Shown: one piece after another, positions 7,756 to 31,231 of the stretch
How positions within the stretch are numbered: position 1 is the first letter of the stretch
How the letters are laid out: each line of letters opens with the position of its first letter
Assembly: GCA_023301795.1 (NCBI GenBank)
Contig: JALZVU010000191.1
Span: 1-33,184, forward strand
Direction: 5' to 3'
Source of the DNA: Granulosicoccus sp.
Lineage (GTDB): Bacteria; Pseudomonadota; Gammaproteobacteria; Granulosicoccales; Granulosicoccaceae
DNA length: 33,184 bases
Program-made: the position numbers and the translations under genes
Notes under the pieces: model-generated
Database searches by the model: none
What the model was told of the DNA's origin: nothing
What the model saw: the letters and a program-made list of their open reading frames with translations, nothing else

Positions 7756-9774
7756 CTAGATTGCCGATCTTGAAAGTTGTCTTAGTTGAACTAAATCATT
7801 GCGGTAGTGGCAGGCAACGCAGTGCCCGTTTTGAGAAACTGGGTCGAGCGTTGGAACCTCTTTGCTGCATCGATCATCTGCCAATGGGCAACGTAGGCGA
7901 AAGCTACAGCCCGACGGGATGTTGGCAGGATCTGGCGGCTCCCCTGAGACAACAAATTTTTCAGCTGTGCGCTCCTTCGGATGGTCCACTGGAATCGACG
8001 CTAGCAGAGCGTGTGTGTATGGATGTCTTGAATTTGAAAACACATCGTCTTTCAAGCCAATTTCAACCACCTTGCCTAAATACATAATGGCAATGCGGTC
8101 GGACACATGGCGTAGTACACCTAAATCATGGGAAATGAAAATGAAACCGGCCTGGCTTTTTGCGCTCAAGTCATCAAGTAGGTTGACCACTTGCGCTTGA
8201 ACAGAAACATCCAGTGCAGAGGTTGGCTCATCCAGCAGTATGACTGTTGGATCAAGCGCCAACGCCCTGGCAATTGCAACCCGTTGACGTTGACCACCAG
8301 ATAGTTCAGATGGGAGGCGATCGAGATAGATTTCGAGTAATCCCACGGCATCGATTAGTTCGGCAATGCGCTTGGATATAAGGGCTCGATTCCATCCGGC
8401 AATTTTCATTGGCTCAGCGATTATCGAGCGAATGGTCATACGTCTATCTAAAGACGATGTGGGGTCTTGAAACACCATTTGTATGTCGCGACGCACCTCT
8501 CGCAGTGCTTGCCCTCGTAGACCTGATATTTCGCGACCGTTAACTTCAATGCTTCCAGCATTTGCCGAAAGCAATCCCATTGCAAGTCTTGCTAACGTGG
8601 ACTTACCGCACCCAGACTCACCAGCCAGTCCAAGTGTCTCTCCACGACGAACTTCCAAGTCAATACCATTGACCGCATGTACCTGAGCAAATGACTTTCT
8701 CAGGCCTTTGACTTTCAGAACAACATCACCCGTTGGACGCGGATTTTTCTCCTTGCTGATCTCAATAGCGCCTGTCAAAGGCGTGCTCATGAGCGACTCA
8801 TGAAAATGACAAGCGACCGCACGTTCGGAGCTAATCCGGTTCAACCCCGGGGGGTGTGTCTTGCAGATATCCCTGACGTAACGACACCTTGGATGGAATG
8901 CACATCCCTGCACTGCATCAGCAGAAGAAGGAGGCAGGCCTGTGATTGAGGCAAGACGGCCACGATCATGTGTTGAAGACGGGCGGCTTTCAAGTAGCGC
9001 ACGTGTATAGGGATGGGCCGGTCTGTCAAAGAGATCATTAACGGGTGTCTCCTCGATAATGCGCCCTGCGTACATTACGATGACACGTTGGGCGAGTTCA
9101 GCGACCAGACCTAAATCGTGGGTAATTACCACAGAAGCGACCTGATGTTTTTCTTGAAGATCGCGAATAACACCTACTATCTGAGCCTGTACGGTAACGT
9201 CCAGTGCCGTGGTTGGTTCATCTGCGATGATGATGCCCGGCTCACCTGACAGTGCCATTGCGATGAGCGCCCGTTGGCGCATCCCACCGGAAAACTCATG
9301 CGCAAACTGATGGGTCCGGAGCTCGGGGTTGGCGATACCCACCTCGCCAAGTAAACGAACCGCATGCTCATGCAGTTGCCGTTTCGAAGCACGTCGATCA
9401 TGCGCCGCAATAGTCTCAGAGACTTGCTTGCCAATCTTCATCGTCGGGTTGAGTGAGGTCATCGGGTTCTGGAAAATCATCGAAATTTCAGTACCGCGTA
9501 ACTCGTCTAGACGCACTTGTGTTGTATCTTTTATATCTTCGCCATTGAGAGTAATTGAGTCTGCCTGGACAATAGCGCTCGAGGGCAGAAGCCCTAGAGA
9601 TGCAAGCATGGTTACCGACTTGCCAGACCCGGACTCACCCACAATGGCAACCTGTTCTGCCTGGTTGATCGCAAAACTAACGCCGTCTATCACATGATGC
9701 TGACCCTTGTTGGTGCGGAACGACACGTTCATGTTCTCAACAACAAGCACTGGTTTTCTGCAATTATCGCTCAT
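7756..9774 (-). CDS. Fused dipeptide/oligopeptide-type ABC transporter ATPase (DppD-DppF in one chain)
   Basis: This is a 672-residue double ATPase that drives the two permeases downstream of the sulfatase genes. Half one carries Walker A GESGSGKSV (about residues 46-54), signature EFSGGMRQRALIA and Walker B GIIIADEPTTALD, then the cysteine-bearing oligopeptide C-terminal extension (GCAFHPRCRYVRDIC). Half two repeats the plan with GESGCGKST (about 383), ELSGGQRQRVAIARAL, VILLDEPTSALDVSVQAQ and GCSFRLRCPLADDRC. Fusion of the D and F subunits is known from GsiA-like systems. The ATG overlaps the preceding permease stop by four bases. Both catalytic sites look intact. Confidence 0.92.
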   Translation of the reverse strand: MSDNCRKPVLVVENMNVSFRTNKGQHHVIDGVSFAINQAEQVAIVGESGSGKSVTMLASLGLLPSSAIVQADSITLNGEDIKDTTQVRLDELRGTEISMIFQNPMTSLNPTMKIGKQVSETIAAHDRRASKRQLHEHAVRLLGEVGIANPELRTHQFAHEFSGGMRQRALIAMALSGEPGIIIADEPTTALDVTVQAQIVGVIRDLQEKHQVASVVITHDLGLVAELAQRVIVMYAGRIIEETPVNDLFDRPAHPYTRALLESRPSSTHDRGRLASITGLPPSSADAVQGCAFHPRCRYVRDICKTHPPGLNRISSERAVACHFHESLMSTPLTGAIEISKEKNPRPTGDVVLKVKGLRKSFAQVHAVNGIDLEVRRGETLGLAGESGCGKSTLARLAMGLLSANAGSIEVNGREISGLRGQALREVRRDIQMVFQDPTSSLDRRMTIRSIIAEPMKIAGWNRALISKRIAELIDAVGLLEIYLDRLPSELSGGQRQRVAIARALALDPTVILLDEPTSALDVSVQAQVVNLLDDLSAKSQAGFIFISHDLGVLRHVSDRIAIMYLGKVVEIGLKDDVFSNSRHPYTHALLASIPVDHPKERTAEKFVVSGEPPDPANIPSGCSFRLRCPLADDRCSKEVPTLDPVSQNGHCVACHYRNDLVQLRQLSRSAI

Positions 9775-10613
9775 GTGATTCTCTTTGATGTCACATGTTG
9801 TGGATCAAGGCCATCACGCAGAGCGTCTGCAAGTAGGTTGATGGCAACCAACACCACTGTCAACGCAATGCCGGGGAAGATCGCATACGCCGGGATAATG
9901 TCGATAAAACGCAGCGCGTCGGCCAACATTTGGCCCCAACTGGGTGTAGGAGGCTGAACACCCAGGCCAAGAAAAGACAGCCCTGCTTCAAGCAGGATTG
10001 CAATGCCGACCGACAGACTTGCCTGTACGATGAGAGGTCCCATAGAGTTTGGGAGTATGTGGCGCATCATGATCCGTCCTGAACGTGCGCCCATGGATTG
10101 AGCGGCCTCAACATATTCTTGTTGGCGTTCGATAAGCGCAATGGCTCGAGCAAGGCGCGCAAACAATGGAGATTGGGCAATTGCAATTGCAATCGCCACT
10201 TGTATAAAACCCGGACCCAGAATCGCCACCACAGCTGCCGCAAGCAAAATTGCCGGAAATGCACTGATCGCATCTGAAATACGCATCATTACCGCATCAG
10301 TTATTCCCCCGAGATAACCCGCTGTTATTCCCATAAACGTGCCCAGCAACGCTCCTAATACAACTGCAAGCGCACCTGCAATCAGTGACACTCGAGATCC
10401 ATACAGTGTTCGGGTATAGATATCGCGACCTAGGAAATCGGTACCAAAAGGGTGTGTCCAGGACATGCCTAACAGTTCATTACCGCGAATTTGCTCGTTA
10501 GGTCCGTACGGCGTTAGAAGTGGTGCGAATATCGATAGTAGAATGACAATCGATATCAGGATCAGTCCAATCCGACCACCACGATGATGCCAAAGGTACT
10601 GTAAACCTGCCAT
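9771..10613 (-). CDS. Oligopeptide-type ABC transporter permease (DppC class)
   Basis: This is a 280-residue inner-membrane permease with an N-terminal anchor (LILISIVILLSIFAPLLTPY) and the BPD_transp_1 core. The FGTDFLGRDIYTRTLYGSRV motif just after the first helix is diagnostic for the DppC/OppC subunit. The EAA loop reads EYVEAAQSMGARSGRIMMRH (about residues 160-180). Its start overlaps the stop of the DppB-type gene (TGATG), and its stop overlaps the ATPase start. It acts with the neighbouring permease as the transport channel. Confidence 0.9.
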   Translation of the reverse strand: MAGLQYLWHHRGGRIGLILISIVILLSIFAPLLTPYGPNEQIRGNELLGMSWTHPFGTDFLGRDIYTRTLYGSRVSLIAGALAVVLGALLGTFMGITAGYLGGITDAVMMRISDAISAFPAILLAAAVVAILGPGFIQVAIAIAIAQSPLFARLARAIALIERQQEYVEAAQSMGARSGRIMMRHILPNSMGPLIVQASLSVGIAILLEAGLSFLGLGVQPPTPSWGQMLADALRFIDIIPAYAIFPGIALTVVLVAINLLADALRDGLDPQHVTSKRIT

Positions 10614-11572
10614 CAGGACTTCCCACCGACAGAGCCTCGAACGCGCGGATCAAACAATCCATAGGATAGATCAATAAGCAGATTGACCAGTATGTAAATA
10701 ACGACAAAATACATCAGTGCGCCCTGCACAAGTACGATGTCTCGATTCTTGATTGCCTCTATGGTCAAGCGACCTAGTCCCGGCCAATTAAAGACCGCCT
10801 CAATCAGAATTGCGCCGCTTAGCATCTGGCCAAATCGCAATCCCAGGACCGTCAGAACCGGGATTGCTGCATTGCGCAGAATATGATGGCGCATCAGCCA
10901 TCGTGGTCCTAGACCTTTTGCTCGCGCTACAGTCACGTAGTCCCGTGATAGCTCGTCCAGCACGCTGGCGCGAACCAGTCGCGCAATCATCGCAATTGAA
11001 TCCAGTGACAAGGCGACAGCAGGCATAACCAGGTATCTTAGTGCGTTGAGTGGCTCATCAGAGAACGATTTACGTCCACCCGATGGCAACCACCCGAGCC
11101 AGACCGCAAAGCACAAAATGCCCAGGATACCGAACCAGAAATTAGGGATCGACAAGACAAAGGAGTTAACCACTGTGATGGTGCCATCGATCCAACGGCC
11201 TTGGTTTTGTGCGGCCACCATACCAACGAAAACACCGAACGTAGAAGCTATCAAAATGGCTGCTATAGCAAGTTCCAACGTCGCCGCCAATCGGCTGGTG
11301 ATCAGCTCTTCCACTGGGCGCCCGATAATATGCGATGTGCCAAGATCGCCCTGCAGAGCAGCAGTCGCCCACTTCACGTATTGCACCGGCAACGGTTGAT
11401 CAAGGCCGAGCTTTCGTTCTAATGCAGCGACGACTTCAGGCGTAGGGTCAGGCCCGGCAAGCACGGTGACCGCATCGCCAGGTACCAAGTGCATTATCAA
11501 AAACACGACTACTGAGACCATCACGATGACTACCAGGGTCTGCATCAAACGATTCAGTAGGTAGGGCAGCAT
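10613..11572 (-). CDS. Oligopeptide-type ABC transporter permease (DppB class)
   Basis: This is a 319-residue inner-membrane permease. The N terminus is the typical DppB/OppB helix (LLNRLMQTLVVIVMVSVVVF) followed by HLVPGDAV. The EAA region reads DYVTVARAKGLGPRWLMRHH, and a downstream GAILIEAVFNWPGLGRLTIE segment is also family-typical. It overlaps the formylglycine-generating enzyme gene by a single base (TGATG) and is followed directly by the DppC-type permease. This tight packing ties the transporter to the sulfatase pair in one transcript. Confidence 0.9.
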   Translation of the reverse strand: MLPYLLNRLMQTLVVIVMVSVVVFLIMHLVPGDAVTVLAGPDPTPEVVAALERKLGLDQPLPVQYVKWATAALQGDLGTSHIIGRPVEELITSRLAATLELAIAAILIASTFGVFVGMVAAQNQGRWIDGTITVVNSFVLSIPNFWFGILGILCFAVWLGWLPSGGRKSFSDEPLNALRYLVMPAVALSLDSIAMIARLVRASVLDELSRDYVTVARAKGLGPRWLMRHHILRNAAIPVLTVLGLRFGQMLSGAILIEAVFNWPGLGRLTIEAIKNRDIVLVQGALMYFVVIYILVNLLIDLSYGLFDPRVRGSVGGKS

Positions 11573-12405
11573 CAGCTCTTCTCCGCCACATCCCAGACGA
11601 GTCGAAAACCGATATGGTTAGTGGACATGTCGGCACTAACAGGATGGCGCGCTGCTGGGCGGTAACGCTGGCAATAGGATGGCGAACACAGGTGCGAACC
11701 GCCCTTGATTACAAATCTAGTTTCCTTCGACTGTAATCCACAGCAAGCATGGGTGCGATGAGAGTCGGCGAATGGGTCAGCTGTCCACTCCCATACGTTG
11801 CCGATCATGTCGTACAAACCCGCCGGGTTCGGTGCAAAACTCCCAACCGGAGTTGTTCCCCAAGGCGCTAAACCTGTCTCTCGCGAATAGGGATATCCGC
11901 GTGCCCAAATATTGGCCGCTCGTTCGCCATTGGGCGTCAGCTCATCACCCCAAATATATTCTTGTCTGCCTTGGCCAACGCTTGCGGCGTATTCCCACTC
12001 AGGCTCTGTAGGCAACCTCGCGCCGGCCCATTCAGCAAAGGCACGCGCATCTGATAACGAGACCTGTACCACTGGATGCTCATCATGCGCTTGTGTGATA
12101 AGAGACTGACCATCTGGTTTTCGCCAACAGGCACCTGGCGTAACAACCCAGCCATCAGACACGGCATTGATCTCGTGGGCAGGCGGCGTGAACACCGCTC
12201 CTGAGCTCAAACGCTCCGCATCGCTTACGTAATTGGTGGCTTCGACAAAGACTGTAAAGTCTGCATTAGTAACTGGTCTGGTTTCTATACCAAACTCACT
12301 GACACTGCGTAAATGACGAGGAGATTCCTCAGGATAATGTCGATCGGAGCCTGCCCAGAAAGTGCCTGATGAAAGTCGTACCCGCACACACTCACGCTTG
12401 GCCAT
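11572..12405 (-). CDS. Formylglycine-generating enzyme (SUMF1/FGE family), probable sulfatase activator
   Basis: This 277-residue protein has the FGE-sulfatase fold. It starts with VRLSSGTFWAGSDRHYPEES, then TRPVTNADFTVFVEATNYVS, and a C-terminal block GNVWEWTADPF, KGGSHLCSPSYCQRYRPAAR and NHIGFRLVWD. The two cysteines of LCSPSYC (residues 240 and 245 from this start) align with the copper-binding catalytic pair of aerobic FGE (Cys336/Cys341 in human SUMF1). This supports a real oxidase rather than one of the many catalytically unrelated FGE-fold proteins. Such enzymes convert the sulfatase Cys to formylglycine. The neighbouring sulfatase has exactly that Cys-type site. ATG 12405 is preferred to an in-frame TTG at 12426 that overlaps the sulfatase gene; neither has a clear ribosome site. 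No signal peptide is seen. Confidence 0.85.
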   Translation of the reverse strand: MAKRECVRVRLSSGTFWAGSDRHYPEESPRHLRSVSEFGIETRPVTNADFTVFVEATNYVSDAERLSSGAVFTPPAHEINAVSDGWVVTPGACWRKPDGQSLITQAHDEHPVVQVSLSDARAFAEWAGARLPTEPEWEYAASVGQGRQEYIWGDELTPNGERAANIWARGYPYSRETGLAPWGTTPVGSFAPNPAGLYDMIGNVWEWTADPFADSHRTHACCGLQSKETRFVIKGGSHLCSPSYCQRYRPAARHPVSADMSTNHIGFRLVWDVAEKS

Positions 12406-12419
12406 TGTTTGTGCTGCAA

Positions 12420-13910
12420 CTACCAATTAGCAACCCTCGGCTGAGACCGATCTTCGGTGTGGTCTAGAACATCTAATAGCTGATCTTTAAGACGCTCTCT
12501 TAGTTCTCGATGCGCCTTGTCGTGATATAGATTGACTAACTCGCCTGGGTCTGTCTCCAAGTCATAAAGCTCGCCGTCGCGTTTGCGATCTGTCGCCGGT
12601 TCACCATGCCAGATGACAAGTTTATACTGTTCGTGACGAAACATCGTTGTGTGAACAGCCGGCTGCGCCGGATGGCCACTGTCGCGGTATTCACACAATG
12701 CCCAGTTTCGCCAATCCGTATTACCGGAAAACAACCCCATGAGTGATGCACCCTGCGCACTGTTTGTTCCTTTTGCACGGCCCACGTCCAGATAAGTTGA
12801 GGTCAGATCAATCCATTGGACGATTTCAGGCACCTGCGTATCCCCTGGTATATGCCCAGGCCAGCGAAGAATCAGTGGAACCCGTGTGCAGCAATCGTAC
12901 ATCATCGGACCCTTCAGCAATATGCCATGGTCGCCGAGCATTTCACCATGGTCAGATGTAAATACAACCAATGTATTTTCGGCTTGGCCGGCCGCCTCTA
13001 AAGCATCCAGAATACGCCCAACTTCCTGATCGACCATTGTGATCATGGCGTAATAGGAAGCCCGAACCTCTCTAAGCTCTTCTTCGGAATAATCCAGAAA
13101 CCCTGGCGCATTGCCGCCCATCGATTTCTCGGAATACAGGGTTTGAACGTCGGGTTTTGTGTCCAGTTCACCCTTTGTCTGAATGGGGCCCGGAATAGTC
13201 TCGGCATCAAACAGCTTACGAAATTCTTCAGGGGCGCCAAAAGGATGGTGTGGATCAAAAAAGTTAGCGATCAGAAAGAACGGTTGATTACTTTCGCGAG
13301 CACCCTCTTCATCTTCAATGAAGTGAATGGCTCGATCTGCCACCCAATGACTGAAATGTGCTTCCACCGGCACGACATCCATCGGTGTCGCACCGCGTGA
13401 TTTATTCCCGGCCTCGGCATTGTCTGCATCACCTTCTGAAGGGAATACGCTGGTGTATACGTCCGGGTGGTTAATCTTCAACCACCGCAGGTAAGCGTTT
13501 TGCGGCGAACGGTGGATAGGGTCGTGCGCCCATTCAAAAAATCGATAGCCATCATCAAAGCGTTTTTCTGTCTGCCAGCCTCCACACGCTGAAAGGTGCT
13601 GCTTACCGACCATACCGCAATCGTAACCGGCATCAGCCAACACTCGGGTGAACATCTTGCGGTGGTCCGGCATGGCAACGCCGTTGGCCCAAAGCCCATG
13701 GTTGCGTGCGTACATGCCGGTAAACAGCGAAGCCCGTGACGGACTACAAATAGTGTTCTGAACATAGCATTGCTCGAACATCGCCCCCTGGGCCGCCAGT
13801 CTATCGAGGTTTGGGGTTTTTGCATGGCTGTTTCCGTAACACCCAAGCGTATCAAATCGCTGTTGATCGGTGCACAGCATCAGAATATTAGGCCTCGCGG
13901 CTTGACTCAT
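12420..13910 (-). CDS. Type I sulfatase, cysteine class (CSPSR), probably cytoplasmic
   Basis: This 496-residue member of the alkaline phosphatase/sulfatase superfamily hydrolyses a sulfate ester or sulfamate. The N-terminal metal site is NILMLCTDQQRFDTLG. The modification motif CSPSR starts at Cys55, so activity requires conversion to formylglycine. The second metal site is TSDHGEMLGDHG, followed by LLKGPMMYDC with the conserved Lys. ATG 13910 (MSQAARPNILML) is chosen because the family begins there; the frame is open up to 14003 but the extra residues do not look like a signal peptide. Lack of a signal peptide points to desulfation inside the cell after import, matching the ABC importer in the same operon. 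It is the first gene of the operon and is divergent from the LysR gene. The substrate cannot be read from the sequence. Confidence 0.88.
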   Translation of the reverse strand: MSQAARPNILMLCTDQQRFDTLGCYGNSHAKTPNLDRLAAQGAMFEQCYVQNTICSPSRASLFTGMYARNHGLWANGVAMPDHRKMFTRVLADAGYDCGMVGKQHLSACGGWQTEKRFDDGYRFFEWAHDPIHRSPQNAYLRWLKINHPDVYTSVFPSEGDADNAEAGNKSRGATPMDVVPVEAHFSHWVADRAIHFIEDEEGARESNQPFFLIANFFDPHHPFGAPEEFRKLFDAETIPGPIQTKGELDTKPDVQTLYSEKSMGGNAPGFLDYSEEELREVRASYYAMITMVDQEVGRILDALEAAGQAENTLVVFTSDHGEMLGDHGILLKGPMMYDCCTRVPLILRWPGHIPGDTQVPEIVQWIDLTSTYLDVGRAKGTNSAQGASLMGLFSGNTDWRNWALCEYRDSGHPAQPAVHTTMFRHEQYKLVIWHGEPATDRKRDGELYDLETDPGELVNLYHDKAHRELRERLKDQLLDVLDHTEDRSQPRVANW

Positions 13911-13926
13911 GTCGTGAAACCTCAGT

Positions 13927-14011
13927 TTGCTTAGCTGTGGAGCGGCAAGAATACTCACTGTAAACCATAAGTACCAATAATCATTTACAATCTTGCCATG
14001 CATTTTTGTAA
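13927..14011. promoter_or_regulatory. Divergent regulatory region between the sulfatase operon and the LysR gene
   Basis: The 113-base gap between the two start codons holds a dyad TTACAA (13985-13990) and TTGTAA (14006-14011) with a 15-base spacer. That is compatible with a LysR-type site. For the regulator, TTGCTT (13927-13932) and AATACT (13950-13955) with 17 bases between could form a sigma-70-like promoter, which would put the dyad downstream of it. A divergently encoded LysR protein acting on the shared intergenic region is the common arrangement. The exact promoters are guesses. Confidence 0.4.
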
Positions 14012-14023
14012 TATCATTCGAGG

Positions 14024-14929
14024 ATGAACACCACGCATCTAAAATTTTTCGTCGAAGTCGCCGAACACCAATCGATTACAAAAGCCGCCAAGGCCTTAAA
14101 TCTTACACAGCCTGCTGTAACACGCGGCATTCTCCAATTGGAGGAAGAGCTACAGGTCAGTTTGTTTGACAGAATGCCGCGTTCAATGCACTTGACTCGA
14201 TTTGGTGAGAGTTACCTTAGGCATGTGCGGGCAGTGTTTGCACAGCTACAAAATGCCCAAGCAGAATTACGACATCTTGCCGATTCACCTATTGACGAAA
14301 TTGTTATAGGAGCCGGACCCACATGGTTGATGGGCGTACTGCCTGAGGTACTCGGCGAGTTCACTCGCAACAATCCAAATGTGACGATCCGTGTCCGTGG
14401 TGGCTATGACAAACAGTTGTCAGAGATGCTCGATCGCGGTGAGGTTTCATTTATCCTGTCAGATACCAATAAGGCGCAGATCAACGATGACATGGTGGAA
14501 ATACCGTTGATTCATTGCGAATATATTGTGGCGTGCCGAAAAAATCATCCGCTGGCTGGACGTGCAAAGGTTCCGTTGTCTGAATTGCTGGACTATCCCT
14601 GGGCAATGCCTGATCAGGCCGAACGTGCACTCGCAAGATTAACAGGGATTTATTTTGCCGAAAGTCTGAACGCCCCAGAGCCCTTGATTCGTTCAACATC
14701 GCTGAGCTTTATTTTAAGGCTCTTGGGCGCGTCAGACACGCTGACATTCGTGGTGAAGTCATCGTTACGCCAGCTTCACTCCGGGAAACTGGCAATAGTA
14801 GATGTCGATCATGTTTTGCCAACACGCAACGCTGGCATTGTAAGGCGCAAAGATGACTGGGAAAGTCCGGTCGTTGCTAATCTTGTGCAGCTATTGTGTC
14901 GCTATTGCAAGAAGAACCCTAATCAATAA
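14024..14929 (+). CDS. LysR-family transcriptional regulator
   Basis: This is a 301-residue LysR regulator with an N-terminal winged helix-turn-helix (residues about 3-60, including FVEVAEHQSITKAAKALNLT and PAVTRGILQLEEEL) and a C-terminal effector-binding domain (from about 90, IVIGAGPTWLMGVLPEVLGE). It is divergent from the sulfatase/FGE/ABC operon and is therefore the likely regulator of it, presumably sensing the imported compound, a desulfated product or sulfur status. GAGG directly abuts the ATG with no spacing, so the ribosome site is unusual. No other ATG fits the family N terminus. Confidence 0.9.
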   Translation: MNTTHLKFFVEVAEHQSITKAAKALNLTQPAVTRGILQLEEELQVSLFDRMPRSMHLTRFGESYLRHVRAVFAQLQNAQAELRHLADSPIDEIVIGAGPTWLMGVLPEVLGEFTRNNPNVTIRVRGGYDKQLSEMLDRGEVSFILSDTNKAQINDDMVEIPLIHCEYIVACRKNHPLAGRAKVPLSELLDYPWAMPDQAERALARLTGIYFAESLNAPEPLIRSTSLSFILRLLGASDTLTFVVKSSLRQLHSGKLAIVDVDHVLPTRNAGIVRRKDDWESPVVANLVQLLCRYCKKNPNQ

Positions 14930-15300: not shown

Positions 15301-16851
15301 ATGATTCATGACGATTTTAGTCTGGCGGCAGCCAGATATCCCGACAATATTGCGCTTTGGAGCGAAGAGCAGGTACTTAGCTACAAGGAGTTAGATCAAC
15401 TCACTAGCTCACTAAGTGCTTGGCTGAACGATAGCTTGCCTGGGCACGGACATCGTGTTGCTGTATTAATGCCCAAGTCTACTGATGCAATAATTGCGAT
15501 CATCGCAGTGCTCAAATCAGCTAATACGTATGTACCACTCAGTGAAAGCTGGTCGCAGGGACGATTATCAAAAATATGTGAAGACAGTCAATTCAGCTTT
15601 GTACTGACTTCCATCGATATGTCGGGTTTACCGGTGCACGAACAAAACACCTTAATGACAGGTACAGCGCAATGGCGCGAAGCAATCCACTACACACCAA
15701 CAAGCAACTATTCGGCACCGCCTGTTGCTGAAACATCGCTTGCCTATATACTCTACACATCGGGATCAACCGGTACGCCTAAAGGTGTTTGCGTGTCTCA
15801 CCGAGCCGCTTATCATTTTCCTAATTGGGCGAAATCCGAGTTCGCAATGAATGATCAGGATCGTGTCGCTTCTGTTTCCCCGTTAACATTTGATCTTACA
15901 ACCTTTGATATGTTTGCCACATTGGCAGCCGGCGCCGCCCTATACCTTGTGCCAGAGAAGCTTAAGGTGTTTCCTGCGCGCTTATCTGAGTTTTTACAAA
16001 ACCATCAAATAACAATTATCTACGCAGTGCCTTCAACCTTGATTTTGCTTATGCAACGAGGAAAGCTAGACAGTCGAAATCTGAAGTCTATGAAGAATGT
16101 GTTGTTCGCTGGCGAAGAATTTCCAGTTGCACAATTCAAGCAGCTAAGACAATTGTTACCAGCTCACATCGACTATTGCAATTTATATGGACCAACAGAA
16201 ACTAATGTGTGTACCTACTATCGTGTGCCTGAGACATTAGACCTGGCAACAATGCCTATTGGCTGCGCGTTACCTGAAACACATTTGTTTCTACGCAATG
16301 AATCTGTAGATGCTAGCAATGTATCCACAGGAGAGCTCTGCGTTGCGGGCCCAACGGTGATGAATGGATATCACGCGCGCAACGATTCAGCTGCCAACTA
16401 TTTTCTAAATGATCCACACGATATAGAACGTCAAGCTTACGCTACAGGTGATCAAGTCAGCTTTTCTACAGATGGAATTTTGAACTACCACGGCAGGCTT
16501 GATAAAATGGTAAAAATATGGGGTTATCGTGTTGAGCTAGGTGAGATTGAATCGTGCTTGCGAGAATTAGATAATGTGGCACAGGCAGCAGTTGTTAAAC
16601 GCCAAAAGCTAGAATCAGCAGGCGAAGAATTAGTCGCGTTTGTAAGCATGCAAAACAGCAAAGCCAACAACGATGAAACTGCATCCAGCGTTTTTACCAA
16701 AGTAGCTTTTGCACACTGCAAACAAAACTTACCCTCTTATATGGTGCCAAAACACATTAATATACTTGAAACGCTACCACTAAACGGTACGGGTAAAATA
16801 GACCGCTTACAACTTGAAACGCTTGTCAATCAACTAAACCTAAATACATGA
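15301..16851 (+). CDS. Stand-alone amino acid adenylation enzyme, predicted L-proline-specific
   Basis: This 516-residue AMP-forming adenylation enzyme should activate an amino acid and load it on the downstream carrier protein. Core motifs are present: A3 YTSGSTGTPKG (about residues 151-161), A4 FDLTTFDMF, A5 NLYGPTETNVC, A7 YATGDQVSF, A8 GRLDKMVKIWGYRVELGEIE and A10 LNGTGKIDR. Reading the pocket positions by eye against PheA gives D-L-F-Y-L-A-L-V-C-K. As I recall, stand-alone prolyl-AMP ligases such as PltF, PigI and RedM carry DLxYLALVCK. There is no fused condensation or carrier domain. The carrier gene follows 13 bases after the stop. No clear ribosome site precedes the ATG. A DltA-like enzyme is the main alternative, but the code argues for proline. 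Confidence 0.8.
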   Translation: MIHDDFSLAAARYPDNIALWSEEQVLSYKELDQLTSSLSAWLNDSLPGHGHRVAVLMPKSTDAIIAIIAVLKSANTYVPLSESWSQGRLSKICEDSQFSFVLTSIDMSGLPVHEQNTLMTGTAQWREAIHYTPTSNYSAPPVAETSLAYILYTSGSTGTPKGVCVSHRAAYHFPNWAKSEFAMNDQDRVASVSPLTFDLTTFDMFATLAAGAALYLVPEKLKVFPARLSEFLQNHQITIIYAVPSTLILLMQRGKLDSRNLKSMKNVLFAGEEFPVAQFKQLRQLLPAHIDYCNLYGPTETNVCTYYRVPETLDLATMPIGCALPETHLFLRNESVDASNVSTGELCVAGPTVMNGYHARNDSAANYFLNDPHDIERQAYATGDQVSFSTDGILNYHGRLDKMVKIWGYRVELGEIESCLRELDNVAQAAVVKRQKLESAGEELVAFVSMQNSKANNDETASSVFTKVAFAHCKQNLPSYMVPKHINILETLPLNGTGKIDRLQLETLVNQLNLNT

Positions 16852-16864
16852 TAAATAGCTCTAA

Positions 16865-17140
16865 ATGACACAACTAACCACACATGAACGTATTATCAAT
16901 TTGATATGCAACGACGTTGCCGTAGGTTTATCAGCTGATGAAGTTTCCAACGAATCTTCATTGTTTGATGACTTGAGTCTAGATTCTATCCAACTGGTCG
17001 AACTCTTCACTAAGTTGGAGGCCGAATTTTCAATCGAACTAGATGACGATGATCTAGATTTTCAGTACTTTGCGTCAATTAATTCTCTTGCTGGGTTTGT
17101 AGATACTATGGTGGCAGCCGGCAACGGGGATGGGTCCTAG
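16865..17140 (+). CDS. Stand-alone peptidyl/acyl carrier protein
   Basis: This 91-residue acidic carrier protein has its phosphopantetheine attachment site at Ser41 in the motif DLSLDSIQLVEL. Helix two continues as FTKLEAEFSIELDDDDL. Size and position, 13 bases after the adenylation gene, match the PltL/RedO/PigG type of discrete carrier that holds proline while it is oxidised. No phosphopantetheinyl transferase gene is recognised in the window, so one encoded elsewhere would be needed. Confidence 0.88.
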   Translation: MTQLTTHERIINLICNDVAVGLSADEVSNESSLFDDLSLDSIQLVELFTKLEAEFSIELDDDDLDFQYFASINSLAGFVDTMVAAGNGDGS

Positions 17141-17146
17141 CAAGGC

Positions 17147-17170
17147 GCTGACTCTATTTAAGTAGTCAGC
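17147..17170. terminator. Stem-loop between convergent carrier and hydrolase genes
   Basis: GCTGACT (17147-17153) and AGTCAGC (17164-17170) form a perfect 7-bp stem with a 10-base loop in the 50-base gap between two convergent genes. ATTTT follows on the plus strand but is short, so it may be a weak bidirectional terminator. The location between two stop codons is the main support. Confidence 0.5.
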
Positions 17171-17190
17171 ATTTTCAGAACATAAGCAAT

Positions 17191-18078
17191 CTAAATGGGT
17201 TTGTTGATATAAATACTGCTGGTCCGAACAACATACCTTTCCACTAACCAAGCTGATATAGAATCGGTCAGTAGCTGTCTATCTTGTGTCAAAGGAAAGA
17301 CGTGGTCTGCGTCTTTCAGATAGAGTATTTGCATGTTGTCGCCAAATGTGATCTCTGGAAATGCATCTGAATGCTGATCTTTATAATTGTATGGCCAACT
17401 GCCGGTAAAAATACATAGATTACTAGCATCCCTATCAATAAATTTTTGATACTCCAGCGCTGTTTTCTTACGATCAGGCACTGTCCATCTGAACGGGATG
17501 GTGATGGATTCGAAATTTGGTATCGCGTTTTTATTTCGAAATTTATCTACATAAGCTTTAATGGTAGACAATCTGGATACCCAGGCACGTTTTCTGAATA
17601 ACTTGGGTATCTCTCGATTTATTAGTGCATTAAAATAGTAACGCGGTGTCTTAAAGTAATAACCATCAATACCAACGGCGCCCACGATACGCGTATCTGC
17701 TAGCATTGCCCGGTGAGCATTGTCAGCTCCTGTGCATATTCCCATTACCACAAACTTCTGTTCGTTGAATTCGCTTTGCAAATAATCCATTGCGGCTTGA
17801 ACATCTTCGATTTGTTGTCTGCCTCTTGCAAGACTGTCACTACGCCTTTCACTATCACCAATTCCTGATATGTCAAAGCGAAACGTGTTAAACCCGATGC
17901 CACTAAAGTGTCTGGCTAGCCGTACGTACAGCCGATAAGGACCAACATTAGGCAGTAGGCCAGAATTCAGCAGAAGCACCACAGGACGTCTTTGCAGTTC
18001 GTTATCTGCCTTTGTAGCATCCGTGTAAACACCGACTAAAGCTGACTGTGTGCCAAAATTACAAGCAATTTCACGCAT
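17191..18078 (-). CDS. Alpha/beta hydrolase with a cysteine at the nucleophile position
   Basis: This 295-residue alpha/beta-hydrolase fold protein has no evident signal peptide. The strand-and-turn FRFDISGIGDSERR (about residues 66-79) precedes the nucleophile elbow VVMGICTGADNAH, where Cys115 replaces the usual Ser (G-x-C-x-G). A candidate catalytic His lies in KDADHVFPLT near the C terminus. Cys nucleophiles occur in dienelactone hydrolases, and GxC elbows also occur, as I recall, in exosortase-associated hydrolases. It overlaps the NRPS gene by eight bases and is last in that operon, so a role in releasing, transferring or editing the NRPS product is likely. The reaction is unknown. Confidence 0.75.
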   Translation of the reverse strand: MREIACNFGTQSALVGVYTDATKADNELQRRPVVLLLNSGLLPNVGPYRLYVRLARHFSGIGFNTFRFDISGIGDSERRSDSLARGRQQIEDVQAAMDYLQSEFNEQKFVVMGICTGADNAHRAMLADTRIVGAVGIDGYYFKTPRYYFNALINREIPKLFRKRAWVSRLSTIKAYVDKFRNKNAIPNFESITIPFRWTVPDRKKTALEYQKFIDRDASNLCIFTGSWPYNYKDQHSDAFPEITFGDNMQILYLKDADHVFPLTQDRQLLTDSISAWLVERYVVRTSSIYINKPI

Positions 18079-21000
18079 TTGCTTTTTCCATGATGCTTTT
18101 AACTATGTGAAACACACTTTTGCCAGGCAACCAAGCCAATAAATCGTCGTAAGTTTGAATAGCCGAAATATTGTCATTAACCTGTCCAAGCACCAAACGT
18201 TTGGCGACGCGATTCAGATTTCCTGCTAGCGCTGTAAAATGTGGAGATTGCTCATTGATAACTAGGTGCACGGTTGCACATTTTTCTAGAAGAGGGCCAT
18301 TTAGTAGTTCTAGTTTCTCTAGATCACGCCGTACTTTCGCACTGCAATGAAACCCCAAAATTTCACGCTCGGATTCATTGACAATATTTTTCTGGAGACC
18401 TTTCGGATTCTCTATCAAATGTAGGTATCTTTTTTCGAATAGACTAATATACTCACGGCTGCTGATCACTGGCTCCCACAGAATAAACTTATCAACTGTC
18501 ACGTTTGACAAGCTAGCAGCCAGTGTTGCTCCGTATCGAAAGCCAACGATTGATAGTTCTTTAAAGCCTGAAACTTCGATCAACTTCTGGGCTGCTGTGG
18601 CTATATCCTGTTGCCAACGCTCTGGGCTGCCGTCTTCATCGTCACCCCAGGAATTGCCACATCCAAAATAATCAAACCGCAAAACATAATAACCTTCCGC
18701 GGCGAGCAAGGAGGCCAGACGGTGATATCCCCATGCAATGTTGTTGGCTTCGGTGAATATCGAATTACACAGTAGAACCGCACCACGTGGGGATTGAGCT
18801 TGCGACGGCTCATGCAGTCGTGCATATAACTCGTCGTTAGCAAAGAAAAACGTTTTCATTCGCGGAAGAGACTGTTTGTTTGAAGAGGTAACAGGCTCCA
18901 CAGTTTCATCGTCAAAATCTTTCAGTAACTCACGTATGGTGCCTGATGCCATAGCAACAGGATCTATCTTTATGCGCAATTCTTTTCGTATTCTGGCCAA
19001 CACCTGCATTGCGAGCAGCGAATGCCCGCCGAGATCAAAAAACGTCTGATTTACCGGTACCGTTTCGAGTTGCAGTACATCTGTCCAGATATCAGCCACA
19101 GATTTTTCCAGGCGCGTTTGGGCGACCAACAAGTTCGACTTTGTATGTAGGCTCTCTGTTAACGAGATTGCTTTTGACTGTCTGTCTAACTTTCCGTTTG
19201 GTGTCAACGGTAGCGTGTCCAGATAAATCAGGTTCTGTGGGACCATGTAAATAGGGAGGGCCTGTTTCAGGCTGTCGCGTAGCTGATCAATGATGTCACT
19301 CGCTGGCTCATCCGTCTCAAAACAGGCGACTAAACGCTGATCTCCGTTACTATCCAACAGAACAGTGGCCATAGATTGTTTTATAGCGGGGTGAGCATTC
19401 ATTTGGAATTCAATTTCACCCAACTCAATGCGGTGTCCGCGCACCTTTACCTGGTTATCTAGCCTGCCAATGCATTCAATGTTGCCATCAGAGCGATACC
19501 GTGCTGCATCTCCTGTGGCGTAAACTAGCTCTTCAGTATTAAATGGGTTTTGGGTATATTTTTCCCGGGTTAGCGCTTCTCGCCCCAGATACCCAAGCGT
19601 CACCCCGGTGCCGCCAATGTACAACTCCCCCACCCCTCCGGGACACACAAGTTGTTTGTGCTTGTTTAAGATGTATAAGGTGGTATTGTCAATAGGCTTG
19701 CCAATCGCGATACGAGCCTCTGTCTGGGTCACCTGGTAACAACTCGACCAAACGGTTGTCTCTGTTGGGCCGTACATATTCCACAACTCAGCCGTACGCA
19801 CACGAAGTTCGTCAGCTAGATCAGGGGGCATAGCTTCCCCGCCGCACAAGGCCTTAAGGGAGGTGTTGCCACGCCAACCAGCGTTGATAAGCATTCGCCA
19901 AGTCACGGGGGTGGCTTGCATTATCGTAGCCTGTTCACTAACCAGAAGCTGTGAAAGGCGTTCTCCATCAACAGCATCATCACGAGAGGCCAAAATACAG
20001 GTAGCACCACAAAACAAGGGTAGCCATATCTCAAGTACCGCTATATCAAACGATAATGTAGTGAGTGCAAGCAAGCGATCATTCTCACTCAGGCCGGGTT
20101 TCTTTTGCATACTGCAAAGAAAATTGACCAGATTTTTGTGACTGACAGTAACGCCTTTTGGCTTGCCCGTGGAGCCAGATGTATAGATGAGGTAAGCAGT
20201 GTTTTCGCAAGTGTGACCCTCTGGCATCGCTATGGCCGATTCGCTCAAATTGTTTATCTCAACCTGGAGCTCGTCGAGTACGATAGCCTTAGCGCCAGTA
20301 TTGGGAAAACGTTTTAGTATGTCCGAATGGCAAACCAAATAGCGAGTTTGCGAGTCTGTCATCGTATGGGTAATGCGATCATCAGGATACTCATGATCGA
20401 TTGGCAGGTATGCCGCACCCGCTTTAAGGATAGCCAGTGCGGCTATGACCATATCAAGAGACCGATGGAGGCACATTGCCACTACATCGCCAGACTTAAC
20501 CCCGAGTTGTTGCAGAAAACAGGCCAACTGATTAGAGCGTGTATCCAACTCCTGATAGCTTAGCGATGTACCTTCACATCTAAGTGCTAGAGCTGTTGGT
20601 ACTAAGCTGCATCGATCAACTATAAGCTCATTGATCGTTTTTTCAGTTGGAAAATCCTGCTTAGTATCGTTATATTCAAGAGTAAGCTTACGCCTTAACT
20701 CATTGTCAATTAGCGTTAGGTGTTTTAGTCTTTTTTCAGGCTTGTTAACGAGCTCTTTAAGTAAGAAAATATATTTGTTCAGCAACCAATTTATCTTGGC
20801 GCTATCAAACAGTGAGCTACGGCATTCAGCCTGTATAAAACACTGACCTGCGTTTTCACGAATAGTGAACGTTAAATCATAACGAGCTCGGCATTTTTCC
20901 AACTGGATACTTTCTATAGCTATACCTTCGAAGTCCAAGTCACTTTCTTGATCAACAAGGTGTGAAAAGCGTACATCAAAGAACGGATTACGTTGATAGT

Positions 21001-22063
21001 TTCGCTCCTCATGCAGCTCTTCAACCAGTTGTTCGAAGGTTATGTCAGAGTAGCGATAGGCGTTAAAACACGTTTTCTGAACGGCTTTAAGAATTTCGCG
21101 GAAATCTTGCTCGTCATTGAGTGTTGTTCGTAATACCAGTGTGTTTAATAAGAAGCCAATCATTTTGTCGCTCCCGGGGGAGCGTCTATCGGCATAGTGT
21201 GTACCGACGGGAATATCTGTTTCACCAGTCCACAACGATAACAATATTTTACACACTGAAAGCATCGCCATGAAAAAACTGGCTTGCTGCTCATGAGCTA
21301 TTGCTCTTATGGCAATGACTAACTCATCAGGCAATGGTTTTTCTAAGCGAATACCCGCGCTTGAAGGTATAGACTCTCTATCACGATCAAGCAGCAAGCT
21401 TATTGGTTTACTATCGTTGAGTTTCTTTGCCCAGTATTTGTGTTGTCTCGCAATAGCAGTGCCGTGGCTGCGGTACTCACAAAAATCTACATAATCTGAA
21501 TACTGAACCACCAACGGTGTAATATTTAGCGGCTTGTTATGCGCGAAATGATTGTAGAATTCACTCAGCTCCAGATAGAGAATCGACTTGGATATGTGGT
21601 CGAAAATATTGTGGTGAGCCACAAATACAAACAAGTGTTCGTTACCTGTATCGGTAGAAAACAGAGTGCACCTGAAAAGTGGCGCCTCATGTAAATCGAA
21701 TGGCTGATTTATCTGATTGTTCAATACACTCTGCTGTTGTTCCGCTGACAAGTGCGCAGGCATTCTTTGCTGATTTAACAGCTGAAACTGATTTTCTGTT
21801 TCCGTAGTTGAAATTGTCTGGATTAACCGCGTAAGGCGGTCAGATTCAAGTCGGAAGCTGGTTCTTAGCGTTTCATGTCTGTTGACAACGGCTCGTAAAC
21901 TTCTCTCAAGGGCCGTCGTGTTCACTTGCCCCGTGAAACTGAAATTGCAGCTGACGTTGTAGGCCGGATTTTCTGGATTGATACAATGTAGGACGTATAG
22001 TCCCTCTTGCGCACGCGTGCTGCTAGTGGAGCGAATGTCATCGCTCTCATTTTGTATATTCAT
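18071..22063 (-). CDS. Nonribosomal peptide synthetase, C-A-PCP-alpha/beta hydrolase, predicted glycine-activating
   Basis: This is a 1330-residue single-module synthetase. The condensation domain (about residues 15-440) has HHNIFDH near residue 150 in place of HHxxxDG, so the catalytic second His and Asp are kept but the last Gly is His. The adenylation domain (about 465-965) has YTSGSTGKPKG (about 624), FDIAVLEIW, NMYGPTETTVW, YATGDAARY, GRLDNQVKVRGHRIELGEIE and PNGKLDR. The pocket residues read D-I-L-Q-L-G-M-V-W-K, differing by two conservative changes from the glycine code DILQLGLIWK. The carrier has FFDLGGHSLLAMQ with Ser1015. A C-terminal alpha/beta-hydrolase domain (from about 1069) has GFRYG at the nucleophile elbow, with Arg1176 where Ser is expected. 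There is no epimerase or canonical thioesterase. It lies between the dehydrogenase and hydrolase genes. Confidence 0.9.
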   Translation of the reverse strand: MNIQNESDDIRSTSSTRAQEGLYVLHCINPENPAYNVSCNFSFTGQVNTTALERSLRAVVNRHETLRTSFRLESDRLTRLIQTISTTETENQFQLLNQQRMPAHLSAEQQQSVLNNQINQPFDLHEAPLFRCTLFSTDTGNEHLFVFVAHHNIFDHISKSILYLELSEFYNHFAHNKPLNITPLVVQYSDYVDFCEYRSHGTAIARQHKYWAKKLNDSKPISLLLDRDRESIPSSAGIRLEKPLPDELVIAIRAIAHEQQASFFMAMLSVCKILLSLWTGETDIPVGTHYADRRSPGSDKMIGFLLNTLVLRTTLNDEQDFREILKAVQKTCFNAYRYSDITFEQLVEELHEERNYQRNPFFDVRFSHLVDQESDLDFEGIAIESIQLEKCRARYDLTFTIRENAGQCFIQAECRSSLFDSAKINWLLNKYIFLLKELVNKPEKRLKHLTLIDNELRRKLTLEYNDTKQDFPTEKTINELIVDRCSLVPTALALRCEGTSLSYQELDTRSNQLACFLQQLGVKSGDVVAMCLHRSLDMVIAALAILKAGAAYLPIDHEYPDDRITHTMTDSQTRYLVCHSDILKRFPNTGAKAIVLDELQVEINNLSESAIAMPEGHTCENTAYLIYTSGSTGKPKGVTVSHKNLVNFLCSMQKKPGLSENDRLLALTTLSFDIAVLEIWLPLFCGATCILASRDDAVDGERLSQLLVSEQATIMQATPVTWRMLINAGWRGNTSLKALCGGEAMPPDLADELRVRTAELWNMYGPTETTVWSSCYQVTQTEARIAIGKPIDNTTLYILNKHKQLVCPGGVGELYIGGTGVTLGYLGREALTREKYTQNPFNTEELVYATGDAARYRSDGNIECIGRLDNQVKVRGHRIELGEIEFQMNAHPAIKQSMATVLLDSNGDQRLVACFETDEPASDIIDQLRDSLKQALPIYMVPQNLIYLDTLPLTPNGKLDRQSKAISLTESLHTKSNLLVAQTRLEKSVADIWTDVLQLETVPVNQTFFDLGGHSLLAMQVLARIRKELRIKIDPVAMASGTIRELLKDFDDETVEPVTSSNKQSLPRMKTFFFANDELYARLHEPSQAQSPRGAVLLCNSIFTEANNIAWGYHRLASLLAAEGYYVLRFDYFGCGNSWGDDEDGSPERWQQDIATAAQKLIEVSGFKELSIVGFRYGATLAASLSNVTVDKFILWEPVISSREYISLFEKRYLHLIENPKGLQKNIVNESEREILGFHCSAKVRRDLEKLELLNGPLLEKCATVHLVINEQSPHFTALAGNLNRVAKRLVLGQVNDNISAIQTYDDLLAWLPGKSVFHIVKSIMEKANA

Positions 22064-22126
22064 AGCTTAACGTGCACCGTTACCGTTGTGCTGGGGATGC
22101 ATACATCGGATACACTAAGCGACGAT

Positions 22127-23383
22127 CTACCAATACGTTTCTGACATGCGAGTCATGTCAAAACCCAAAGCCGATTTTCCTGCATAGAGCACACATTCGT
22201 CACTGGTTGCTGGCATTAGCCCTCCACAACGAGCATCGCGGTAGTGTCTTTCAAGAGGAAGTCGTTTTGCTATCGTAGCTCCACCGCACAACCGCATAGC
22301 CTGAGAAGCCAAATGTGGTGCTAATTCCCCCACTAGGTACTTTGAGCGATGCACCGCTTCATTAGTTTCTATCGTGCCAGGGTTTTCATCAACTTGTCTG
22401 GCCGCGTCGTAAACTACAGTACGGCATGACTCCATTGCTATGGAAAGCTCGCCAACTTGATGCTGGACTTGTTCGCTGCTGATCACCGACTCATCAGTGC
22501 CTGGTTTGTTTTTATTTTTTAAGTAGCTTGTCATGAAATCAAACGTGACACTGCATATACCTAAATAGACGCCAATGTATCCTGCTATTGTCCAGTGTGG
22601 CTCTCTAACCAGCTTCAGCATACCGAGCCCTTGTGTACCAAGAAACAAGCGGTCAGTAGGCACAAAGACGTCTTTCAAGTGCATCATGTTTGTGTTGGTA
22701 GCTCGCATTCCAAGCGTGTCCCAGATCACCTGGATTTCTATCCCCGGATTCTCAGCCTCTATGACGAAAAACGACAGATCAGGAAACTCACCATTCGCGC
22801 CTTCTTTTTTTGCGGCAGTGACGTAGTAATCTGCAAAGCCAGACATTGACACCCATGATTTGAGTCCATTGATAATGTACCCTTCGTCCGTTTTGCGGTA
22901 AGTGGACTTCAACTTACTGAAATGTGCACCGATACCGGGTTCCGAGTTCGCCGAAGCGAAGAGTTTTTGGTTTTCAACAATCTCTTTAAATGCCCAATCT
23001 CTGAAATTGTTGAGTACTTCGCCTCGTTTGCCTGATAACGCGCCCACCTTCGCTTCTGCTAATGTACCAGCCGCGATGTTATGCATATTAAAAGCCAAGG
23101 CGGTAGAGGCATCTCCCATCGCAAGTTGCTCTAAGGCTTTGGTGTATGTCAAAAAATCCGCACCAATTCCGCCTTTGTCTTTTGGAACCATAAGAGAGAG
23201 CAAGCCACTTTCGCGCAGCTCCTTAAAATTTTCCACAGGAAACTCTCGTGTGGCATCGTAATGTGCGGCACGTTCGCTGAATCCTATTGACAGAAACTTG
23301 CAGTGATCAATTATGGCGCTCGAACTCGATTCAGAATTTAGCGGTGGCGCACTGTGCTCCACCTGTGGGCTGGATTGAGTCAT
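22127..23383 (-). CDS. Acyl-CoA dehydrogenase-like flavoprotein, candidate prolyl-PCP dehydrogenase
   Basis: This 418-residue FAD enzyme has the acyl-CoA dehydrogenase fold: an N-terminal helical domain, a middle beta domain around INGLKSWVSMSGFADYYVTA (about residues 190-215) with NTNMMHLKDVFVPTDRLFLG after it, and a C-terminal helical domain with CGGATIAKRLPLERHYRDAR. The usual EGT(S)xIQ catalytic-glutamate segment is replaced by LMPATSDECVL, so the base is not at the MCAD position. A Glu in LVREPHW lies in the helix where isovaleryl-CoA dehydrogenase, and probably the prolyl-PCP dehydrogenases, carry it; this is my alignment by eye. It is first in the NRPS operon, 63 bases before the synthetase. 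The context suggests PltE/RedW-like oxidation of prolyl-PCP to pyrrolyl-PCP. The N terminus is about 20 residues longer than usual. Confidence 0.75.
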   Translation of the reverse strand: MTQSSPQVEHSAPPLNSESSSSAIIDHCKFLSIGFSERAAHYDATREFPVENFKELRESGLLSLMVPKDKGGIGADFLTYTKALEQLAMGDASTALAFNMHNIAAGTLAEAKVGALSGKRGEVLNNFRDWAFKEIVENQKLFASANSEPGIGAHFSKLKSTYRKTDEGYIINGLKSWVSMSGFADYYVTAAKKEGANGEFPDLSFFVIEAENPGIEIQVIWDTLGMRATNTNMMHLKDVFVPTDRLFLGTQGLGMLKLVREPHWTIAGYIGVYLGICSVTFDFMTSYLKNKNKPGTDESVISSEQVQHQVGELSIAMESCRTVVYDAARQVDENPGTIETNEAVHRSKYLVGELAPHLASQAMRLCGGATIAKRLPLERHYRDARCGGLMPATSDECVLYAGKSALGFDMTRMSETYW

Positions 23384-31142: not shown

Positions 31143-31231
31143 GGAATGCGTGTTTCGAAGCTGGCTGAAGTGTCGATGCAAGAGGCACGATCAGGTCTGT
31201 GAAAAGCAGAACCGATCCGGCGTTTGCGCGG

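Follow-up and report, generated by a model that had tools for sequence, protein, structure and literature searches.

The window, a stretch of 33,184 nucleotides from contig C191 (JALZVU010000191.1), belongs to a 5.78-Mb draft genome of a marine bacterium (97% complete, 2.95% contaminated); the genomes with the locus that carry names were Granulosicoccus and Granulosicoccaceae metagenome-assembled genomes. It contains a compact cluster of five genes for a nonribosomal peptide synthetase (NRPS) pathway. A free-standing adenylation (A) enzyme, termed the ligase, and a discrete carrier protein converge on an operon-like row of a flavoprotein with acyl-CoA dehydrogenase (ACAD) fold, an NRPS with condensation (C), A and peptidyl carrier protein (PCP) domains, and a discrete hydrolase, H1 (Table 1). 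The NRPS ends in a second hydrolase-like domain, H2, and the gene overlaps the start of H1 by 8 bases. A first-pass annotation had placed the five open reading frames (ORFs) and the 50-base convergent gap correctly. The families that it had named were recovered by Pfam, with AMP-binding, PP-binding, Condensation/AMP-binding/PP-binding and Acyl-CoA_dh domains in the respective proteins and Hydrolase_4 above its cut-off in H1 only. Families of polyketide synthases (PKS) or halogenases, which it had reported as lacking, were not present among the 26 window ORFs scanned with Pfam. The annotation missed the pairing of an arginine-elbow with a cysteine-elbow hydrolase. The guanine-cytosine content was 41-45% in six of the seven 1-kb steps over 15-22 kb (50% in the seventh), 47-48% over the ACAD and 47-55% across the remaining window.

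Neither hydrolase has a serine nucleophile. The nucleophile elbow reads GFRYG in H2, with Arg in the nucleophile position, and GICTG in H1, with Cys. Hydrolase_4 matched H1 with 32.9 bits (cut-off 27) and the NRPS tail H2 with 24.6 bits, just under the cut-off. H2 preferred the family TIGR03101 (hydr2_PEP; 5.8e-24, 85 bits, below the cut-off of 202.75) and H1 preferred TIGR03100 (hydr1_PEP; 2.5e-16, 59.8 bits, below the cut-off of 168.45). The predicted structure of H2 showed a hydrolase fold with medium confidence (predicted local distance difference test, pLDDT, 63.8; predicted template modelling score, pTM, 0.71). It resembled many alpha/beta hydrolases in the PDB, with no informative single relative among the best 50 matches listed.

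Table 1. Features of the cluster and its adjoining regulator, with positions in the window.
Feature	Position	Strand	Evidence or detail
LysR-type regulator	14024..14929	+	Pfam HTH_1 and LysR_substrate; candidate regulator only, adjoins the cluster
Free-standing adenylation enzyme (ligase), code DLFYLALVCK, proline/PltF-like	15301..16851	+	Pfam AMP-binding, code, PDB match, tree
Discrete carrier protein, attachment serine in LDSIQ	16865..17140	+	PF00550, 42.3 bits; alignment of five orthologues
Convergent gap, 50 bases	17141-17190		Between carrier (+) and H1 (-)
H1, discrete alpha/beta hydrolase, Cys elbow GICTG	17191..18078	-	Cys115 codon 17736-17734
NRPS C-A(Gly)-PCP-H2, 1330 amino acids	18071..22063	-	Pfam domains, code
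H2, fused alpha/beta-hydrolase-like NRPS tail, Arg elbow GFRYG	18074..18880	-	Arg codon 18538-18536
NRPS carrier domain	18923..19099	-	PF00550, 47.8 bits
NRPS glycine-type adenylation domain, code DILQLGMVWK	19175..20599	-	Pfam, code, nine-row clade with SH-aLRT 100
NRPS condensation domain	20684..22018	-	PF00668, 264 bits
ACAD-fold flavoprotein, non-RedW clade, REPHW motif	22127..23383	-	Pfam Acyl-CoA_dh domains, NCBIfam scores, tree

The pair was followed through 58 loci with 60 H2 domains, comprising the window, four orthologous loci, 29 loci from genomes of the class, L066-L068, six plasmid loci and 15 loci from the phylum. H1 came next downstream on the same strand for 59 of the 60 H2 domains, and in 18 cases the two were encoded in a single open frame. 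The H2 domain that lacks this neighbour, in L046, is located at a contig end; in the same genome (G260), H1 is matched at the beginning of a different contig, as expected for a pair split by assembly. Domains of about 100-110 amino acids or less were left out of the H2 and H1 alignments, and one elbow alignment left out 18 short loci repeating longer ones. Cys was present in all 59 aligned H1 domains and the aligned His in 58. The H2 elbow held Arg in 55 of 60 domains, Gly in five (L140, L141, L143, L144 and L088) and Ser, Cys or Asp in none. Because Gly replaces Arg in these five loci, the absent nucleophile, not Arg itself, is the constant feature of H2.

The 58 loci had been found mostly through H2 and a reverse search with H1 was therefore run. 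H2 was present in 33 of 274 class genomes (E ≤ 1e-15), 16 of them over the cut-off, and H1 in 35 (E ≤ 1e-10), including all 33 genomes with H2. About four shared genomes would be expected if the two were independent, by our arithmetic with kinship ignored, compared with the 33 observed. The two genomes with H1 only, G048 and G186, showed matches of 41-46 bits only. In the phylum draw, which overlaps the class draw by at least the source genome and G154, H2 was found in 16 of 299 genomes, four over the cut-off. The H1 search matched 14 plasmid records, and all six that were opened contained H2. Adjoining H2 and H1 matches also occurred on contig C3 of G092 and contig C129 of G260, both outside the aligned set.

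Neighbours of the pair included carrier proteins and NRPSs. In all ten over-cut-off loci read (L073-L082), a carrier stood directly before H2. A script detected a carrier immediately before H2 for 19 of 34 domains; the fused carriers of L013 and L017 add to this number, as they were excluded in error by the motif that the script required, and the annotated carrier of L084 was missed as well. H2 was fused to NRPS-type carriers in L062-L065, where the carrier of L062 and L063 is immediately preceded by a Gly-coded A domain, and followed an NRPS in L069. A single frame encoded H2 and H1 in L067, L068, L080 and one of the two pairs of L066, and likewise in the plasmid loci of Azospirillum, Burkholderia, Methylobacterium and Shinella. 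In the H1 tree, the labelled NRPS-linked rows, the five Granulosicoccaceae rows and three unlabelled rows constituted a 15-row clade with a Shimodaira-Hasegawa-like approximate likelihood ratio test (SH-aLRT) value of 97; a separate 26-row clade (99) held the over-cut-off rows. The common clade of the NRPS-linked H1s suggests that they may derive from one recruitment, a reading against which L073 counts (see below). Fusion, gene order and co-occurrence support the view that H2 and H1 would work together.

Two other kinds of locus held the twin hydrolase. L064 (8550-12555) and L065 (9945-13844), which form a small kind of locus, encoded A-PCP-H2 proteins with the unusual code DIEH(I/V)TAV(S/T)K next to a class III aminotransferase and H1. 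L084 (3336-10924), L085 (3273-10984) and L067 (4456-12348) showed a carrier, an ACAD, two middle genes, a large protein and an H2-H1 fusion; in Azospirillum, the pair ended a row of genes for an acyl carrier protein, an ACAD, an amino acid:carrier-protein ligase and DUF1839 as the middle genes, and GH2 as the large protein.

A tie of the pair to polysaccharide biosynthesis was considered and found unconvincing, and is no more than a lead. In a rough screen, which used 11 proteins of L083 and L088 as queries, was insensitive and missed L065, matches were obtained in seven of 25 pair loci, a set without both donor loci and without the five from Granulosicoccaceae, and in two of 12 controls. Polysaccharide genes adjoin the pair by annotation in Variovorax L083 and Shinella L088, and Pfam detected them in L065, L069 and L070. 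In the Granulosicoccaceae set, the queries matched one of five loci (L013, a family 2 glycosyltransferase) and nothing in the window. No exosortase family was present among the 26 window ORFs scanned with Pfam, and the genome and the other loci were not searched for exosortases. The label 'exosortase-type' therefore rests on the family name.

The same five genes were present in four other Granulosicoccaceae genomes, at L013 (G008), L014 (G020), L015 (G009) and L017 (G027), and since the same order recurs there, the set is not a product of chance. In every copy, ligase and carrier were opposite in strand to ACAD, NRPS and H1, so that the convergent order was kept in five genomes. Identity to the window across the four orthologous loci was highest for the ACAD (96, 95, 73 and 74%) and lowest for the NRPS (84, 83, 41 and 46%). 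The ACAD was present in five of 48 family genomes, source genome counted. Flank queries taken from the window (LysR, sulfatase, rhamnose mutarotase and a 373-amino-acid ORF) had no match in L013-L015 or L017. The set thus has different surroundings in different genomes, and the LysR gene lies outside the conserved set. The cluster is patchily distributed and probably mobile. A phosphopantetheinyl transferase gene adjoined the ACAD in G009.

The reading of the A enzyme as prolyl-ligase-like was supported. Its code was DLFYLALVCK in four of the five orthologues and DLFYIALVCK, with one I-for-L change, in L015. An identical code was found in the ligases of Mycetohabitans (L109), Streptomyces clavuligerus (L110), Microvirga (L112) and G190 (L092), each of which adjoined a WER/YER/RER-type ACAD of a clade referred to as ligase-adjacent. 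The best single-A-domain chain in the PDB was 6o6e, an L-proline--[L-prolyl-carrier protein] ligase (252 bits), which we take to be PltF, followed by TycA (249.8 bits) and a second L-prolyl ligase, 7thn (234.8 bits). The tree grouped the ligase with ACAD-adjacent ligases (14 rows, moderate SH-aLRT of 84), apart from NRPS A domains and exosortase-type ligases. The DltA model scored 279.5 bits against a cut-off of 559.85; the ligase tree held no DltA sequence, and no DltA outgroup was found in 94 genomes. At E ≤ 1e-95, the search for close kin of the ligase in the 274 class genomes returned only the window itself. The attachment motif of the carrier, LDSIQ in the window, reads LNSIN in L015.

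The discrete carrier and the Gly-coded C-A-PCP module were likewise supported by Pfam domains and code. The glycine code DILQLGM(V/I)WK was present in all five orthologues and the A domain belonged to a nine-row clade (SH-aLRT 100). The C domain retained HHxxxD; the residue after this motif, usually Gly, was His, or Tyr in the orthologue L017. The NRPS showed no Thioesterase match in Pfam at 0.001. A type I thioesterase has a Ser or Cys nucleophile, and the H2 elbow held Arg in five of five orthologues. By code and kinship, proline and glycine are the likely substrates of ligase and NRPS, respectively.

The flavoprotein had its best NCBIfam match to a FadE16-like model with 169.5 bits, compared with a cut-off of 600. 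Both L-prolyl-PCP dehydrogenase models scored below their cut-offs, with 104.7 of 650 bits for RedW (NF045652) and 100 of 500 bits for PigA (NF053553). In a 31-row tree, it belonged to a 13-row clade (100/99) with Streptomyces ACAD2 and the Aminobacter, Pararhizobium, Dolichospermum, G259 and Azospirillum-type ACADs. This clade was separate from the 11-row ligase-adjacent clade (100/100), nine members of which stood beside an A-domain gene. The tree was built without an experimentally proven PltE or RedW sequence, and the placement of some long rows, Pararhizobium and Streptomyces ACAD1 among them, is unsure. At the first catalytic Glu column, presumably the position of the base in isovaleryl-CoA dehydrogenase, Glu was found in none of the 13 rows of the window ACAD clade and in all 11 rows of the ligase-adjacent clade, by a MAFFT alignment that is gapped in the catalytic loop and in which a shifted Glu (REP) is possible. 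The residue was Thr in all five orthologues, and the window ACAD had no Glu at the second known catalytic column either. A REPHW motif was kept in the five orthologues and in Streptomyces ACAD2, the nearest relative in the tree outside them.

At 1e-50, 369 class genomes yielded only the window ACAD and one relative of 34% identity in G259. A link to this relative was rejected, and the relative is taken as catabolic: in L018, its gene overlaps the start of a CoA-ligase-like ORF, and no carrier or NRPS was seen by eye among the ORFs listed for L018, for which no A, PCP or C family search was made. A plasmid of Streptomyces sp. NBC_01369 (L113, 2114-9757) encoded a hydrolase, an A enzyme with the code DLFIAGLACK, a carrier and two ACADs of different clades, the second of them ACAD2, and the row also held a flavin reductase, an aspartate decarboxylase and oxidoreductases. 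The source genome encoded a second ACAD on contig C117 (L117, 1-3003), which belonged to the ligase-adjacent clade and scored 285.6 bits to RedW. A nearby ORF looks by eye like the beginning of an NRPS condensation domain, and C117 is probably a second NRPS locus cut by contig ends. Relatives of the C117 enzyme were found in G009 (52%) and G027 (50%), and at best 31% identity was reached in G008 and G020, which are drafts of 94 and 97% completeness.

The full set of observations is best explained by a compact NRPS pathway with release by the H2/H1 twin, to which we assign a probability of roughly 0.58. The code and the relatives of the ligase suggest that it would activate L-proline and load it on the discrete carrier. 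The ACAD-fold flavoprotein would oxidise the tethered prolyl group, or a later dipeptidyl group, possibly stopping short of a pyrrole. To judge from domains and code, the C domain would then condense the acyl group with glycine on the C-A-PCP module. H2, with Arg in place of the nucleophile, may serve as a docking or regulatory pseudo-hydrolase attached to the carrier, and H1 would be the catalyst, accepting the dipeptidyl group on its Cys and handing it on to water or a different acceptor. The type of release reaction can only be guessed at; it may be hydrolysis, cyclisation or transfer to an acceptor such as a sugar. As its simplest products, the pathway would give N-(pyrrole-2-carbonyl)glycine, the cyclised form of this compound or a prolyl-glycine analogue that is less oxidised.

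Beyond this cluster, the Arg/Cys twin may be a general machine for carrier-protein off-loading or acyl transfer in exosortase-A loci, ligase rows and NRPSs, fused to the NRPS here in place of a thioesterase; we put this slightly below even odds. H2 would receive the carrier and H1 would hold the acyl group on its Cys and pass it to the acceptor. The usual release of NRPS products relies on a single thioesterase, reductase or cyclising domain. A release end made of a pseudo-hydrolase and a Cys hydrolase, if true, would be a different solution. The link also gives a testable biochemical idea for the 'exosortase A system-associated' hydrolases, both families of which are typed hypoth_equivalog by NCBI, and this idea would be easier to examine in a small NRPS with predictable substrates (Pro, Gly) than in a polysaccharide locus. 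The flavoprotein in turn allows one to ask whether an ACAD outside the RedW clade oxidises a carrier-bound amino acid.

Several points count against twin release and its pathway. H1 and H2 fell below the curated cut-offs of both families, the predicted structure of H1 failed (pLDDT 39.7), and we are aware of no biochemical work on any member, nor was any found. In score, clade and Glu columns, the ACAD does not show the traits of the known prolyl-PCP dehydrogenases. The codes rest on positions and meanings (Pro, Gly) that we assumed, by alignment to what we take to be the GrsA positions. By script, no carrier was directly upstream of H2 in L066, L067, L068, L070, L071 and L083-L088. The pair of L070 is transcribed before the NRPS, not after it. 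In L073 (the same place as L032), the protein before the pair shows C-, A- and carrier-like matches, and the H1 with this NRPS-like neighbour belongs to the exosortase (26-row) clade.

The first-pass annotation had proposed a full pyrrole pathway, in which the ACAD performs a PltE/RedW-like four-electron oxidation to pyrrolyl-2-carboxyl-PCP and the product has a pyrrole-2-carbonyl-glycine core. The proline ligase, carrier and glycine module of this proposal are supported, and the ligase code is the same as in ligases beside prolyl-type ACADs. G008 and G020 carry the cluster without a close RedW-like ACAD (best 31% to the C117 enzyme), and the cluster's own enzyme would therefore do any oxidation there. 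The dehydrogenase, however, did not prove to be of the prolyl-PCP (RedW/PltE) type: it belongs to a different clade, reaches 105 of 650 bits and has no Glu at either catalytic column. Pyrrole formation by the ACAD is possible and unproven, and the full pathway is a tentative second choice. A somewhat more doubtful explanation is that the flavoprotein is an ACAD-fold monooxygenase or other oxidase, with a flavin reductase acting in trans and an oxygenated or partly desaturated proline as starter. A flavin reductase gene comes after that of Streptomyces ACAD2, whose cluster already holds a WER-type ACAD1; such a gene also lies two genes before the Aminobacter relative, and the nitrososynthase chain 3mxl (84.7 bits) was among the PDB matches of the window ACAD. 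Ordinary dehydrogenases nevertheless scored higher in both PDB and NCBIfam, and the conserved set contains no flavin reductase.

For the hydrolases, it is unlikely that an odd thioesterase domain and an editing type II thioesterase have been brought together with no mechanistic meaning. NRPS loci often hold both kinds, and H1 and H2 are both alpha/beta hydrolases, but the pair stays together outside NRPSs, in exosortase-type loci and with amino acid:carrier-protein ligases, the two share one frame in 18 of 60 cases, and an elbow nucleophile is found in none of the 60 H2 domains. It is improbable that the pyrrole is made in trans by a RedW-like dehydrogenase from another locus, with the cluster ACAD doing a later step: the C117 ACAD of the A-adjacent clade near a putative NRPS start and its relatives in G009 and G027 would fit, but no such gene accompanies the cluster in the drafts G008 and G020.

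Two further features of the surroundings were recorded. At 7759-14003 of the window, a sulfatase, a sulfatase-modifying-factor-like protein and a peptide-type ABC transporter adjoin the cluster, perhaps for uptake and breakdown of a sulfated compound. A GINT1_N (PF24793) protein was encoded at 29475-31181, about 6 kb from the cluster, and at 7261-8997 of L015, where it adjoins the phosphopantetheinyl transferase; the recurrence is possibly chance.

The passages on Granulosicoccus and nonribosomal peptides in PMC8547425 and PMC12662954 do not describe the cluster. The main text of PMC1569441 (2006, PEP-CTERM/EpsH) contains the terms hydrolase, ligase, AMP-forming and acyl carrier with 0 occurrences each. 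In the open-access literature, no mention of the code DLFYLALVCK was found, and nothing on exosortase hydrolase 1 together with hydrolase 2 or on PEP-CTERM in combination with NRPS, hydrolase and exopolysaccharide, which is weak evidence. Articles that touch on related subjects deal with aminoacylases, lincosamide adenylation domains and animal alkaloids, and TIGR03100 is mentioned in one paper. The first-pass view of the cluster as undescribed agrees with the absence of a published description in the same literature, likewise weak evidence.

PltF-PltL-PltE, PigI-PigG-PigA and RedM-RedO-RedW are cassettes of prolyl-AMP ligase, carrier and prolyl-PCP dehydrogenase. The cluster resembles them in its free-standing proline-coded A enzyme, discrete carrier and ACAD-family flavoprotein. 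It differs in its flavoprotein, which belongs to a separate clade lacking the Glu columns, in having a C-A(Gly)-PCP module as acceptor, and in the absence of PKS and halogenase among the ORFs scanned. With the exosortase A hydrolases 1 and 2 (TIGR03100 and TIGR03101; ligase TIGR03098), it shares the order carrier-H2-H1 and the Cys and Arg elbows, whereas it scores below all three cut-offs, its H2 is fused to the NRPS and its ligase is far off in the tree. In the Azospirillum rows (L084, L085), a carrier is likewise loaded with an amino acid, the ACAD belongs to the same broad clade and the twin hydrolase is present; there, however, loading is assigned to an annotated 'amino acid--[acyl-carrier-protein] ligase' instead of an A domain, no NRPS is present, and H2 and H1 are one protein. 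H1 adjoins H2 also in the NRPS loci L062 (C-A(Gly)-PCP-H2), L063, L064, L065, L069, L070 and Variovorax L083. L062-L065 have the carrier-H2 fusion of the cluster, L069, L070 and L083 hold the pair beside an NRPS, and their H1s share the window clade. Unlike the cluster, these loci showed no ACAD in the stretches read, and L064 and L065 carry the code DIEH(I/V)TAV(S/T)K.

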